A stretch of DNA of 5,837 nucleotides. It comes from a bacterium (GTDB lineage Bacteria; UBA9089; CG2-30-40-21; SBAY01). Made by a program: the position numbers and the translations under genes. Below, in pieces: positions 1,842-5,837 of this stretch. The stretch covers positions 1-5,837 of the forward strand of contig JBFLYA010000232.1 of the NCBI GenBank assembly GCA_040757115.1. Direction: 5' to 3'. The notes below the pieces were generated by a model that saw only the letters and a list, made by a program, of their open reading frames with translations, made no database searches and was not told the origin of the DNA. The number at the start of each line of letters is the position of its first letter. Position 1 is the first letter of the stretch.

Positions 1842-2525
1842 ATCCTCATTAGTTTTGGTGTTTTTACAAATAAATTACTTACCTATTATACCATAGATAG
1901 ATCAAGGGGTTCTCCAGTCATCAAGAAAGTTCTTGGTAAAGTATTTGGGAGTGTTTTGATCTGTGATTTTTTCAGTGCCGATGGGAAGATAGTCGCCTGG
2001 GCTAAACAGAGGTATATTGTGCATTTATTTGGTGATTTAGAAGAGATATCCACCAAGAATAAAAGAATCCTGAATGGTTTAAGTTTAGAAAGAAACTTAA
2101 ACCATTACTAAAGGATGCTCTGCGTCTTTCTAATAAGCAGAAAGAAATAGAACCCAATGTTTATATGTCAAAGAGCAATAACTTGCATAAGCGACTTGAG
2201 ATAATATACAACCAAGAATATAATGATGCTGACTGCAAGCGTTTGGCTAAACGACTCATGAGATACAAAGATGAAATATTCACCTTTGTAGATCATCCTC
2301 AAGTAAGTGCCCACAACAACCATGCTGAAAGACAGATAAGACCCGCAGTCATTATGAGAAAAAACTCTTATTGTAACCGTTCTCACCAAAGTGCTGATAC
2401 CCAAGCAATATTAATGTCAATATTTAGGACATTACATCCTCGCCAGATTGGTCCTATTTCTGCATTAAGTAATTCACTTTCTGAATGGATCAAAACAGGG
2501 AATGTTATCCCATTGTCCAATATTT
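1842..2525 (+). pseudogene. IS66 family transposase, C-terminal catalytic part, interrupted
   Basis: Pieces of an IS66 DDE transposase in order. The first is WCF/TNKLLTYYTIDRSRG, crossing a frameshift near 1863. Then comes SPVIKKVLGKVFGSVLICDF with FSADGK (second catalytic Asp; the usual FSAY has become FSAD). A second frameshift lies in the A-rich stretch 2059-2066. The frame then continues as NPEWFKFRKKLKPLL through to SAHNNHAERQIRPAVIMRK (catalytic Glu) and AILMSIFRTLHPRQ. The last continuous piece is open from 2165 and runs into the inserted IS1-like element at 2526. Full IS66 transposases are around 500 residues and the N-terminal third or more is missing, replaced by the IS1-like fragment. 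A TAG at 1850-1852 stands where Trp is expected. Family call firm, gene dead. Confidence 0.82.
2518..2525 (+). repeat. Target-site duplication, left copy (CAATATTT)
   Basis: CAATATTT lies immediately left of the GGTGGTGTCTG tip of the IS1-like element and is repeated in the same orientation immediately right of the other tip (3796-3803). IS1-family elements typically duplicate 8-9 bp, so this supports both the family and the exact boundaries. A 9-bp reading, CCAATATTT, is possible if the right tip is one base shorter. Confidence 0.85.
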
Positions 2526-2546
2526 GGTGGTGTCTGAAAATAGCTA
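2526..2546 (+). repeat. Left terminal inverted repeat of the IS1-like element
   Basis: Begins GGTGGTGTCTGAAA and ends AGCTA. It matches the inward sequence at 3775-3795 at 19 of 21 positions, the two differences being adjacent at repeat positions 15-16. Confidence 0.88.
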
Positions 2547-3314
2547 GTCTCCTCTAACTGAATAGGTAAGCCATTCCTCTATACTCCAAACATGGTCAGT
2601 TAGTCCAGCAGCCATGGCCGGAGTTCGCTTCTGCCAGTATCCCTCTATGTCCTTTATTCGTAATGTTCGCACTACCCAACAAAAATTGTAGCTGAATCCA
2701 ATGAAGTAAGAGATTGCATTATGTAGATTCCAGTCCTTCGAAAAGCAATAAGTCTTACGCTTCTTTCGTGAGTTCTTCCCACGATCCGTACCATTGTTTC
2801 GTTCCACAAATGAGGTATTAATTGTAGTACTAACCCTAAACCGTGCAAGCAATCTCTCCAACAATTTCACTGTGCCAAATACAATCGTTTTCACCACTTT
2901 GACTACACGACCTTTCTCCCGCTTTTTGCTCACTGTAGCATAACACAAATCCTCTGGCATTTTTTTCTCAGGCTTTGAGGAATTTCCCAAATCACCATCT
3001 TCAAATGGCTCTATTTCATAACTATAACTTTGTTCAATGGCGCAAGTGTATGCTGAATAATCATCACTGGTAATTAACAAATCTGTTCGTCCACCTGTCC
3101 GCTTTTTGACATCTTCAACCACCTGACACCAGTTTTCTTTTGTCCGCTTCCCAGACACCAGACTTAACAAAAGACGATGTTCAGGGTCTACGGCAGTATG
3201 GTCTCCCTCATCACCTCGAAAATAATCCAGAGGATCTTCCTGATTACAATTAGTTTCCTTTTTTGATACAAATCCCCACTTCTCATCAAGTTGTATCTCT
3301 TTAGTCTGAGGGGG
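2544..3314 (-). CDS. IS1-like transposase, catalytic part (orfB frame)
   Basis: DDE catalytic domain of the IS1-like element. The frame opens just after a stop at 3324-3326 and has no convincing start of its own, so it is presumably expressed joined to orfA. Reading from the T5C5 run: PPQTKEIQLDEKWGFVSKK gives the first catalytic Asp (3285-3287). LLITSDDYSAY gives the second (about 3063-3065, if the first Asp of the pair is used). SFVERNNGTDR gives the Glu (about 2802-2804), followed by RKKRKTYCFSKDW and FSYNFCWVVRTLR. This layout is the IS1 pattern (DE.W, T/SD...AY, ER.N...R). No internal stop or further frameshift is seen over about 256 codons, so the domain looks intact. A TTG at 3168-3170 could initiate a shorter product, but that would lose the first Asp. 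Confidence 0.78.
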   Translation of the reverse strand, partial: PPQTKEIQLDEKWGFVSKKETNCNQEDPLDYFRGDEGDHTAVDPEHRLLLSLVSGKRTKENWCQVVEDVKKRTGGRTDLLITSDDYSAYTCAIEQSYSYEIEPFEDGDLGNSSKPEKKMPEDLCYATVSKKREKGRVVKVVKTIVFGTVKLLERLLARFRVSTTINTSFVERNNGTDRGKNSRKKRKTYCFSKDWNLHNAISYFIGFSYNFCWVVRTLRIKDIEGYWQKRTPAMAAGLTDHVWSIEEWLTYSVRGD

Positions 3315-3660
3315 AAAAAGCCACTAATTCATCATGCACCTTCTTAGCATAATCTCCAGCTAATCGTGCATATCGAGTTACTGTGTTTTTGTCCACTCCC
3401 ACCAACCGGCTGGTGGCACGCGTCCCACAACCCTCCTGAATATGTTTCATTACCGATATTACCACTTCTGCTGGCAATCGTGCATAATTCAACATTGTTC
3501 CTTTTCGCTCCGAAAAATGAGCACCGCAACTCGGACAATAAATCAGCCGAATCCGTTTCCCTTTTCCACTCCATCCAGAGAAAGAAAGATTTTCTTTACC
3601 GCGAATATTGTAATTCGGACAAGAAAAATTCTGACAACAAAAATGTTCTATTGGATGCAT
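3301..3660 (-). CDS. IS1-like transposase, DNA-binding part (orfA frame)
   Basis: 119 residues from ATG 3658-3660, chosen because GGAG lies 8 nt upstream on the minus strand; a longer upstream frame (to 3717) lacks this. The zinc-ribbon-like N-terminus has Cys 8, 9 and 14 and the pair Cys42-x2-Cys45 (YCPSCGAHFS). It is followed by ERKGTMLNYARLP and a helix-turn-helix at about residues 65-100 (EGCGTRATSRLVGVDKNTV). The frame ends FSPSD* at TAA 3301-3303. The next expected residues (QTKEIQLDEKW) lie in the +1 frame, entered at a TTTTTCCCCC run (3310-3319). With one C fewer, orfA and orfB would be a single frame of about 370 codons. The protein should bind the element ends; alone, as in IS1 InsA, it might act as a repressor (inference from IS1). 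Confidence 0.78.
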   Translation of the reverse strand: MHPIEHFCCQNFSCPNYNIRGKENLSFSGWSGKGKRIRLIYCPSCGAHFSERKGTMLNYARLPAEVVISVMKHIQEGCGTRATSRLVGVDKNTVTRYARLAGDYAKKVHDELVAFSPSD

Positions 3661-3741
3661 CGTTTTCTCTCCTTTGTAAAATTTCGGTACCCCAAACCTC
3701 GCTCCTGATAGACCCACAAGTTAGTCTTGAATACTTACCTT

Positions 3742-3770
3742 ATTATAATTATCGAGACGATGCATCCTAA
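3742..3770 (-). promoter_or_regulatory. Possible promoter of the IS1-like transposase
   Basis: On the minus strand a perfect TATAAT (3742-3747) lies 17 bp downstream of TTAGGA (3765-3770), which matches TTGACA at only three of six positions. It sits inside the element between the right terminal repeat and the orfA start at 3660, where a transposase promoter is expected. The -10 is strong and the -35 weak. Confidence 0.4.
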
Positions 3771-3774
3771 ACTT

Positions 3775-3795
3775 TAGCTTGTTTCAGACACCACC
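3775..3795 (-). repeat. Right terminal inverted repeat of the IS1-like element
   Basis: On the minus strand it reads GGTGGTGTCTGAAACAAGCT from 3795, matching 2526-2546 at 19 of 21 positions. It is directly followed by the second CAATATTT copy. Confidence 0.88.
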
Positions 3796-3803
3796 CAATA
3801 TTT
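3796..3803 (+). repeat. Target-site duplication, right copy (CAATATTT)
   Basis: Same-orientation copy of the octamer at 2518-2525, immediately outside the right tip of the IS1-like element. Confidence 0.85.
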
Positions 3804-3838
3804 CACTTCAGATGGTTAAATCGTTACTTTTATTTTAA
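3796..3838 (+). pseudogene. Possible C-terminal tail of the interrupted IS66 transposase
   Basis: If the IS1-like element and one copy of its 8-bp duplication are removed, the IS66 frame reads through the target as GNVIPLSN-ISLQMVKSLLLF and stops at TAA 3836-3838. The frame continuity is seen in the sequence. Whether these last residues are IS66 protein or chance readthrough into the flanking PHP gene, which ends at 3816, cannot be told. The overlap of about 20 bp suggests the IS66 relic is truncated against the chromosomal gene. Confidence 0.35.
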
Positions 3839-5348
3839 TTGGATTAGAATAAAACCATTTATCTGTCGAAGACTTACCTCGAATCCTTACATAAAAATCA
3901 TTGTCAAAATTTGTAATTTTGTAGTTCATGATAAGATAACCATCTTTTTCTATCCAGTCTTTTGAAGTAAATACTTTTGTCAATTTTGGTTTCCCAGAAA
4001 TATTTGAGATGAGTTCAATTTTAGTTATTTCTTCATTAAATCTTACTTTAATAGATACCACAACAGGATCTCTATTTTTAATCTGTAACACTTCACCCAT
4101 CATAACTCCACTCATCATCTCAGAGGAAACTGTAAACTCTAAATCTGTAATTATATCTCCATGGACACAATACATACAACCACGTCGCAATCCTTTTATT
4201 ACACCTTCATAACTCTTTGTCGGACAAAAGACATATGTCTTTGAATATTCACCCGGATAATAATTAAAAAAAGGATTATGGAAATCACTTTCAACACGAA
4301 TCCAGAAATTTCTCTCCTCACTTAAGAGAATATCCCAAGTACCACCAATTTCACCCACCATTGGATCATAACCATCAATTAAATCATATCCTGGAATATG
4401 AATCTTCTGATAGCCTGGTGCCCCTGCAAATCCTATAAATACATCCCCCACCTTATCATACGCTCTTAATTCTTCAATCGTGTAAAGGCCAATTCTACTA
4501 GGATGGTTTAGACTACAAATTGGTAATACTCCATTAGCCCTTTGAGAATTAAGCCATCTTAATCCTTCTATTGCATCATTAAGTTCTGTTTTACCAGAAA
4601 CAAGACTATCATAGTTAAGCCTAAATTTTTTTATTATTTCATGTTCATTAGGGACATTGGTCACAAGTATAGTAGCATGTTCACCAGCAGGAATGTTCCA
4701 TTCCATCCCATCAAAGATTACTATGTCAGGACAGGTAAATCTTGCATTTTTTATTGCTTGATAATAACTTAAAGTCCCAATTTCAGCCTCTCCATGAGGT
4801 GTAATTGCGATAAAGTCACAGCCAAAAAATTTTGCTTTTTTAACAATTTCTGTTTCAGGATAATCTCCCTCACTCATAACTGTATGCACATGTATATCTC
4901 CCATTAACCATACTCCTTTATCATACCAAGGTAATTTACTTTCTCCTCTTTGCCAATGCCTAATAAATAATTTTCCAGAGGCATAAGTGCAGACTGGAGG
5001 ATTAATTCCATCATCAATTATACCATAAATATAGTAGTTTCCTTCTGAAATATCTGAAGTATTCCAAAGATAAATATTAGTATTTTCATCTTCGTCTATA
5101 TTTTTGACTATTAAGGTTGCATTAAAGGTTCCGGTATTATCTTTGTTAAAGTAAAGGGCAATTTTTGCATTATTATCTGGATCACTATCATCCCAACTAA
5201 TGATATAGGATTCATCTGCTTCTCCTCCTGGAGCAAAAGGAGTAATAATAGTCATAGATGGTTGGATGTTGGTTCCCATTACTTTTGTTACAAAAAGTAT
5301 TCCCCCAATAATGATTATTATACTTAATAAATATCTACTTATTTTCAT
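3816..5348 (-). CDS. Secreted PHP-domain metallohydrolase (CehA/McbA-like) with N-terminal beta domain
   Basis: 510 residues and the only intact chromosomal gene here. Residues 1-25 form a signal peptide (MKISRY, then a hydrophobic run of Leu and Ile to about 20, then VMG), so the protein is exported. Residues about 28-130 look like a beta-sandwich domain: SWDDSDPDNNAKIALYFNKD, NIYLWNTSDISEG and YYIYGIIDDG are typical of exoproteins in IS-rich environmental bacteria. The PHP metallohydrolase domain spans about 145-400, with probable metal ligands GDIHVHT (His153, His155), ITPHGE (His185), GMEW (Glu216), GEHATIL (His224), NHP (His282) and SDFHNP (Asp355, His357). Then come YSKTYVF and CVHGDIITDLEF, usual in CehA/McbA relatives. 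Residues about 405-510 form a beta-rich tail. The family hydrolyses phosphoester or other ester and amide bonds; the substrate is unknown. No Shine-Dalgarno is visible at the ATG. It stands alone, with no operon partners. Confidence 0.87.
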   Translation of the reverse strand: MKISRYLLSIIIIIGGILFVTKVMGTNIQPSMTIITPFAPGGEADESYIISWDDSDPDNNAKIALYFNKDNTGTFNATLIVKNIDEDENTNIYLWNTSDISEGNYYIYGIIDDGINPPVCTYASGKLFIRHWQRGESKLPWYDKGVWLMGDIHVHTVMSEGDYPETEIVKKAKFFGCDFIAITPHGEAEIGTLSYYQAIKNARFTCPDIVIFDGMEWNIPAGEHATILVTNVPNEHEIIKKFRLNYDSLVSGKTELNDAIEGLRWLNSQRANGVLPICSLNHPSRIGLYTIEELRAYDKVGDVFIGFAGAPGYQKIHIPGYDLIDGYDPMVGEIGGTWDILLSEERNFWIRVESDFHNPFFNYYPGEYSKTYVFCPTKSYEGVIKGLRRGCMYCVHGDIITDLEFTVSSEMMSGVMMGEVLQIKNRDPVVVSIKVRFNEEITKIELISNISGKPKLTKVFTSKDWIEKDGYLIMNYKITNFDNDFYVRIRGKSSTDKWFYSNPIKIKVTI

Positions 5349-5398: not shown

Positions 5399-5551
5399 AC
5401 TAGTGCTCTGTCGCCATTCAAATGATTGATTGGCCGTTGTCCCCGCTGGCGGGGGTAGGGGGGTGGATTCTTCTATTTCAGATTTCATATTCCACCCCCT
5501 TAATCCCCCCGCCAGCGGGGCACATCAATTGAGTAGCGACAGAGCACTAGT
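5399..5551. mobile_element. Non-autonomous IS630-type element (MITE) A
   Basis: About 150 bp bounded by a perfect 16-bp inverted repeat: ACTAGTGCTCTGTCGC at 5399-5414 and its complement at 5536-5551. It encodes no protein. The right-end 28 bases (5523-5550) match the complement of the end of the adjacent IS630 element (5697-5724) at 26 of 28 positions. This indicates a shortened derivative mobilised by that kind of transposase. TA in the CTAG at each end fits the TA target preference of IS630/Tc1-like transposases. The interior holds a GC-rich palindrome. It lies 50 bp upstream of the PHP gene start and may affect that gene's expression. Confidence 0.72.
5441..5520. repeat. GC-rich long inverted repeat inside MITE A
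   Basis: Left arm CCCCGCTGGCGGGGG, then TA and GGGGGGTGGA (5441-5467). Right arm TCCACCCCC, then TTAAT and CCCCCCGCCAGCGGGG (5491-5520). The arms pair over about 25 bases with a small internal loop, leaving a loop of about 23 nt. Each arm is also nearly self-complementary (CCCCGC-TG-GCGGGG), so two small hairpins or one long one can form. Its G+C is far above that of the AT-rich surroundings, suggesting an independent dispersed repeat captured in the element. A strong RNA hairpin here could also stop or slow transcription. Confidence 0.75.
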
Positions 5552-5702
5552 GCACTCTCACATAAGTTTTTAATAGTCTGCTTCCTCTCCGACTCTCTGT
5601 TCTTGCTTCAGTGGCAGCCGCAACCTTTAGGTTGCGAAATGATCGCAGGCTGAAACCTGCGGCTACCAATCTATTAGAAATTTCTGTGACAGAGCACTAG
5701 TG
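5547..5702. mobile_element. Non-autonomous IS630-type element (MITE) B
   Basis: About 155 bp between CTAGTGCACTCTCAC (5547-5561), a 13-of-15 match to the intact terminal sequence CTAGTGCTCTGTCAC, and the complementary intact end GTGACAGAGCACTAG (5686-5700). It shares CTAG with MITE A on the left and with the IS630 element on the right. There is no open frame of note. The interior carries the cloverleaf repeat at 5612-5668. The left end is degraded, so this unit is less certain than MITE A. Confidence 0.5.
5612..5668. repeat. Cloverleaf palindromic repeat
   Basis: Outer arms TGGCAGCCG (5612-5620) and CGGCTACCA (5660-5668) pair with one mismatch. Between them are two hairpins: CGCAACC-TTTA-GGTTGCG (5619-5636) and CGCAGG-CTGAAA-CCTGCG (5644-5661). 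Together they can form a three-way junction in single-stranded DNA or RNA. The sequence resembles the short dispersed REP/MITE-like repeats of IS-rich environmental genomes; copy number cannot be judged from one window. Confidence 0.68.
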
Positions 5703-5711
5703 CTCTGTCAC
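5686..5711. repeat. Perfect 26-bp palindrome at the junction of two IS630-type ends
   Basis: GTGACAGAGCACT (5686-5698) is followed directly by its exact complement (5699-5711), centred on the TA of CTAG. It is the right end of MITE B and the end of the IS630 element placed back to back, sharing a single TA. Confidence 0.9.
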
Positions 5712-5837
5712 TACTTAATTGATGGATAAAGTCGTTTCAGTTTAATCCTTGCATCTGGGGTCGTAAATTGCCAATCCACTTTAGCCCCTGCATCATTTCT
5801 TTCTGATTCCCAAGCCGCTACTTCTCTTTTCATCTCA
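5697..5837 (-). mobile_element. IS630-family insertion sequence, 3' end (continues past the window)
   Basis: The terminal sequence CTAGTGCTCTGTCAC at 5697-5711 borders the C-terminal coding end of an IS630-type transposase. Only the transposase 3' side of the element lies in this window. It abuts MITE B, and its first 28 bases are almost the same as the end of MITE A. Confidence 0.75.
5711..5837 (-). CDS. IS630 family transposase, C-terminal fragment (cut by window edge)
   Basis: The last 41 codons, open at the edge, read in part MKREVAAWESERNDAG followed by KVDWQFTTPDARIKLKRLYP and SIK, then TAG at 5711-5713 and TGA at 5708-5710. The 'AAWE..RN..GAKVDW.FTT.DARIKLKRLYPSI' ending is characteristic of a group of IS630-family DDE transposases, which act at TA targets. 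Both stop codons are supplied by the terminal inverted repeat itself, so the coding region runs right into the element end. The catalytic residues lie beyond the window, so whether the gene is intact is unknown. A likely source of transposase, in this or another copy, for MITEs A and B. Confidence 0.8.
   Translation of the reverse strand, partial: EMKREVAAWESERNDAGAKVDWQFTTPDARIKLKRLYPSIK

Follow-up and report, generated by a model that had tools for sequence, protein, structure and literature searches.

Why do three IS630-type units stand end to end at the edge of a bacterial contig, with nothing but a shared CTAG between neighbours? The stretch of DNA analyzed here (the window) is a complete contig of 5837 bp (C232) in a draft genome of 4.3 Mb and 462 contigs. 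As an earlier note on the sequence had proposed, positions 5400-5837 hold three such units joined by shared CTAGs, and the final junction is a perfect 26-bp palindrome. The features of the array are:

5400..5550, plus strand: unit A, a 151-bp MITE without a transposase gene, with CTAG at either end and GTGCTCTGTC terminal inverted repeats
5547..5550, no strand: CTAG common to A and B, read from the sequence
5547..5700, plus strand: unit B, a 154-bp MITE with imperfect terminal inverted repeats of ~30 bp and a palindromic (REP-like) middle
5686..5711, no strand: B/beta junction, the perfect 26-bp palindrome GTGACAGAGCACTAGTGCTCTGTCAC, read from the sequence
5697..5700, no strand: CTAG common to B and beta, read from the sequence
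5697..5837, minus strand: 3' end (last 141 bp) of beta, an IS630-family insertion sequence
5714..5836, minus strand: last 41 codons of the beta transposase, ending FTTPDARIKLKRLYPSIK; a reading frame in the window whose C-terminus matches the ORF of a relative on contig C59

Neighbouring units overlap by exactly four bases, CTAG. The terminal sequence CTAGTGCTCTGTC or its complement is intact at 5400-5412 (plus), 5538-5550 (minus), 5688-5700 (minus) and 5697-5709 (plus), and recurs with two mismatches at 5547-5559 (plus), the left end of B, which bears out the four intact occurrences and one degraded occurrence within 310 bp that the note had counted. Dinucleotide shuffling of the window (200 replicates) never gave five such matches. 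Since the contig stops at 5837, only the last 141 bp of beta are represented, and the 41-codon fragment, too short, gave no Pfam match by itself.

To place the three units in their genome, we searched for further copies of each. Exact matches to the CTAGTGCTCTGTC end motif number 51, and tolerating one change raises the count to 63, with no occurrence in a reversed control. For unit A we found nine copies of full length (150-151 bp, including that of the window), which are 93-99% identical to the window copy, as well as longer relatives; solitary copies lie in unrelated DNA at C33:8452, C109:1921 and C291:207, among others. We refer to any element having GTGCTCTGTC ends as alpha. Unit B has two copies, the second of which (C32:4346-4736) is solitary with CTAG on both sides, measures 391 bp because ~230 bp interrupts it, and has the left end CTAGTGCACTGTC, one mismatch from the consensus. 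The 3' end of beta recurs with 99% identity at C265:4969-5109 and C139:38-178 and with 82% identity at C59:11108-11248, where the relative encodes a DDE_3 transposase (Pfam, E 2.9e-28). This end reads GTGCTCTGTCGCTACTT in C265 and C139, and in the window copy an A replaces the second G of TCG. The beta 5' end, GTGCTCTGTCGCCAATG, precedes the transposase start in C82 and C66, so that short terminal inverted repeats are present, and a 268-bp sequence at C66:17988-18255 looks like an internally deleted beta, since it has both beta ends.

The earlier note had proposed searching the genome for isolated and for abutting copies, with absence of both pointing to one larger rearranged element; both kinds were found. 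One larger rearranged element is ruled out, since A, B and beta are each present elsewhere as separate copies. A and B are shorter than about 300 bp (n = 2 for B, whose other copy is the 391-bp one), lack a transposase, carry the ends of resident IS630 elements and are present in more than one copy, as expected of MITEs. A and B are probably non-autonomous and beta autonomous elements of the IS630/Tc1-mariner type, which insert in the TA of CTAG. Judging from the shared ends, A and B would be moved in trans by a beta-type transposase.

An unrelated repeat family provided a view of the insertion event itself. M1, a MITE with IS1-type ends and more than 70 copies, carries CTAG 15 bp inside one end (75 inner halves), and this CTAG is a landing site for alpha, beta and gamma elements (gamma is described below). 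The intact sequence is GGTGGTGTCTTAAT-CTAG-CATAAAGG with a single CTAG, and most copies are flanked by direct repeats of 7-8 bp; in M1 copies holding an element, CTAG is present on each half. An outer half of M1 in C8 and an inner half in C132 share the same 8-bp target duplication, gaaattcg, and adjoin opposite element ends; the simplest reading is therefore that they flank a single insertion in which one CTAG became two. The inserted element in this case is an alpha element with the same ends as beta, and the comparison is with a paralogous empty site. The alpha insertion in M1, with one CTAG becoming a CTAG on each half, is what insertion at TA with duplication of the TA requires, and it agrees with the TA duplication by IS630 elements described in PMC2170065. 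To seek an empty site of the window in relatives, we searched the family's four genomes for an orthologue of the PHP-domain gene beside the array and found none.

Three A-type copies (C33:6306, C62:4952 and C261:2648) have an M1 half on one side only, the opposite flank being unrelated DNA, so either copies have recombined or contigs were misjoined; the sequence to the left of A in the window could have a similar origin. We also observed that the 8-bp repeat gaaatccg is common to the M1 outer half beside A in C261 (L031:2786-2812) and the inner half beside beta in C139 (L026:166-197). A longer stretch from A to beta may have been inserted whole, splitting one M1 copy, although chance agreement is possible, such repeats being AT-biased. 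Elsewhere in the window, an IS1-like insertion sequence at 2526-3795 has GGTGGTGTCTGAAA ends related to those of M1, and positions 373-2557 contain two broken transposase sequences, one of Mutator/IS256 type on the minus strand (Pfam Transposase_mut) and an IS66-like fragment on the plus strand (from ORF reading only).

We then classified the first bases past CTAG at 64 element ends, finding unique DNA at 34, M1 halves at 15, the own family at eight, gamma at five and delta at two. Gamma (end CTAGTGTCGTGTTGA) and delta (end CTAGTRTAKCGTTCTCTAA) are a second and a third CTAG-using family, whose ends are without the CTAGTGCTCTGTC-type repeat. The eight own-family ends correspond to four junctions: A/B and B/beta in the window, a direct pair in C27 and an inverted pair in C66. 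The longest chain, in C265, comprises four units, gamma (860-2075), A (2072-2222), a gamma-ended unit (2219-4972) and beta (from 4969), with CTAG common to each adjoining pair; the gamma copy encodes a frameshifted DDE_3 transposase, and the second gamma-ended unit contains another transposase gene. Further chains are gamma/A/delta in C339, alpha/gamma in C168 and alpha/delta in C261. Immediately outside CTAG, T is slightly in excess (17 of 34) in a check for a wider target consensus.

CTAG itself is scarce in this genome. In a 1.16-Mb sample (60 stretches, 27% of the genome, chosen nearly blind to elements except for C10 and C27, which were placed over known copies), we counted 227 CTAGs against 2523 expected from trinucleotides (9%). 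The genome is also strongly short of ACGT (14% of expectation), GATC (15%) and GGCC (26%), and the four deficits resemble what restriction avoidance or mismatch repair would leave. Using a simple ORF caller on the same sample, we divided the 189 CTAGs outside recognised mobile elements into 160 coding and 29 non-coding ones, and found that 31 of the 38 on mobile elements are non-coding. Mobile elements thus hold 31/60 (52%) of non-coding CTAGs, or 38/67 (57%) when ORF calls that run across element ends are ignored.

Ordinary IS630 target choice combined with renewal of the CTAG site probably explains the array. An element that starts with G and ends with C would convert a C-TA-G target into C-TA-[G...C]-TA-G, and each insertion would double the target, leaving CTAG at both element ends and consuming none. 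Later elements of the same or another CTAG-using family could land on these end sites, giving chains that share CTAG, and the scarcity of CTAG elsewhere together with selection against gene hits would steer later insertions to element-borne sites. Because CTAG is depleted and mobile elements carry more than half of the non-coding CTAGs, chains accumulate as target availability alone predicts, and two ends that have a repeat in common necessarily form a palindromic junction. Separate units, common CTAGs, mixed chains and insertion into another family's CTAG are documented here, as are the depletion and a junction number close to that expected (see below); the order in which the window's units inserted we infer.

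To look for such junctions beyond this genome, we searched a named genome collection that excludes the window's own genome. The exact 22-bp junction is present in 12 stretches, which belong to Acidobacteriota, Bacteroidota, Planctomycetota and the cyanobacterium Leptolyngbya sp. PCC 6406. When as many as three mismatches are allowed, 31 junctions occur in G005, a Chitinophagales (Bacteroidota) genome with 207 exact ends, nine in G007 and seven in G009; these rates are not representative, because the genomes were picked for having a junction. Within the window's own family there is a single imperfect junction, in a second genus, and a search of a plasmid collection gave one short match only. 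We also noted mini-palindromes of ~29-36 bp in which two element ends stand almost back to back (L249:380-415, L251:367-401 and G006:C11:80918-80946).

Like the draft assembly, with its junctions near contig ends and the mismatched flanks of three A-type copies, the dimers of G005 count against target choice with site renewal as the best explanation. They favour another, in which a dimer forms once, by recombination or by transposase end-joining, and then spreads as a unit. All 19 dimers in G005 with two recognisable units (L218-L240; 165-bp MITE) are head to tail with one CTAG shared and none is inverted, which has a probability of 4e-6 assuming random orientation and independent dimers and does not follow from random insertion. 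These dimers lie at unrelated loci and several have sister units; in two dimer pairs, both the left units and the right units are related. The window and C265 likewise show A and beta in the same order and orientation, with their closest A and beta copies, although the middle units differ. On the other hand, most joined neighbours in the window's genome differ in subfamily or family, and pairs are found in direct as well as inverted orientation, which tandem duplication cannot yield, and loss of long inverted palindromes would equally leave G005 with direct dimers only. In G005, then, either such palindromes are lost or pairs arise by a different route. The sequences flanking a junction in G007 and Leptolyngbya have little or no similarity, whichever way they are compared, and this is what insertion of different units should give. 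Taken as an account of the window, spread of a preformed dimer is unlikely.

A related possibility is that the palindromic junctions are themselves active. The window copy of beta differs from the C265 copy at one of 141 bases, position 14 (window 5710), where A replaces G; G is also found in C139 and in the C66 MITE, and T in C59. It is this A that makes the 26-bp B/beta palindrome perfect. Template-switch correction of a near-palindrome would give that A and is possible from the sequence, though one base represents one event. That palindromic junctions are generally corrected to perfection in this way, and that some hosts form head-to-tail-only pairs, possibly made by the transposase, and not by independent insertions, we regard as doubtful.

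IS30 is known to target sites bearing its terminal repeat, and a transposase with the same active preference would also build arrays. If all CTAGs were equally acceptable, 1.3 own-family junctions would be expected against the four seen (P = 0.035), and shared junctions are also found in six other genomes. The premise fails, however: after scaling to the genome, only 5/601 coding CTAGs are occupied versus 21/129 plain non-coding ones, so coding CTAGs are clearly not equally acceptable (21 of the ~26 unique insertion sites look non-coding and up to five coding). The ends of the family's own elements are occupied at 4/~60 and the unrelated M1 site at 10/76, with no significant difference among these two and plain non-coding CTAGs; insertion into own ends thus does not exceed the rate at other acceptable sites. 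Moreover, gamma and delta ends, which lack the repeat, also adjoin these ends. When we simulated the insertion of 34 elements step by step, with ~280 acceptable sites, 3.6 self junctions were expected against the four seen (P(≥4) = 0.50). An own-end preference of ~0.3 to 3 times neutral fits this simulation and a five-fold preference does not, and since the number of acceptable sites comes from a simple ORF caller, is extrapolated from 27% of the genome and is partly built on the observed insertions, these figures rule out strong preference only. The note's suggestion that element ends are preferred targets that build arrays therefore survives in part: ends do serve as targets, and chains reach four units of mixed families (C265), but a preference for them over other acceptable CTAGs is not supported. 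Active targeting of the terminal repeat is accordingly very unlikely. Chimeric joins inside repeats of a draft metagenome assembly are less probable still, for although three of the four own-family junctions (C27, C66 and B/beta) sit 127-144 bp from contig ends, where repeats halt assembly, and some A copies have mismatched flanks, the A/B junction involves the low-copy B and is separated from the contig end by 287 bp, more junctions lie inside contigs in C265 and C339, the exact junctions of Leptolyngbya sp. PCC 6406 are inside a 5.47-Mb scaffold, and those of G005 are mid-contig in contigs of more than 100 kb.

Together, these results provide good support for the array as a real and ordinary outcome of the way IS630 elements choose targets where CTAG is scarce. 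A transposon directed to a rare tetranucleotide can thus go on renewing the sites at which it lands, which unrelated families share, and element-borne CTAGs pull insertions from genes into mobile DNA. We found no description of CTAG-linked MITE chains in the open literature that we searched. The IS630 element of Shigella offers the closest precedent for the target: by their titles, Tenzen et al. 1990 and Tenzen and Ohtsubo 1991 reportedly describe site-specific IS630 transposition, preferentially to TA in 5'-CTAG-3', as in the window elements, although the sequence families differ and multi-family chains are not described for IS630 in the available texts. ISY100/ISTcSa of Synechocystis is likewise an IS630/Tc1-mariner element that moves by cut and paste and duplicates its target TA, but it targets TA in general, and the accessible part of its report describes no CTAG-linked chains (PMC2170065). 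RUP of Streptococcus pneumoniae (IS630-Spn1-type) resembles A and B as a 107-bp MITE with IS630-like ends, and its association with insertion sequences was not upheld by later counts (PMC3049150). MITE clustering near insertion sequences, debated for pneumococcal RUP, can be understood as target supply and tested by counting sites; in the window's genome, unlike in those counts, the association is present, and the supply of CTAG accounts for it.
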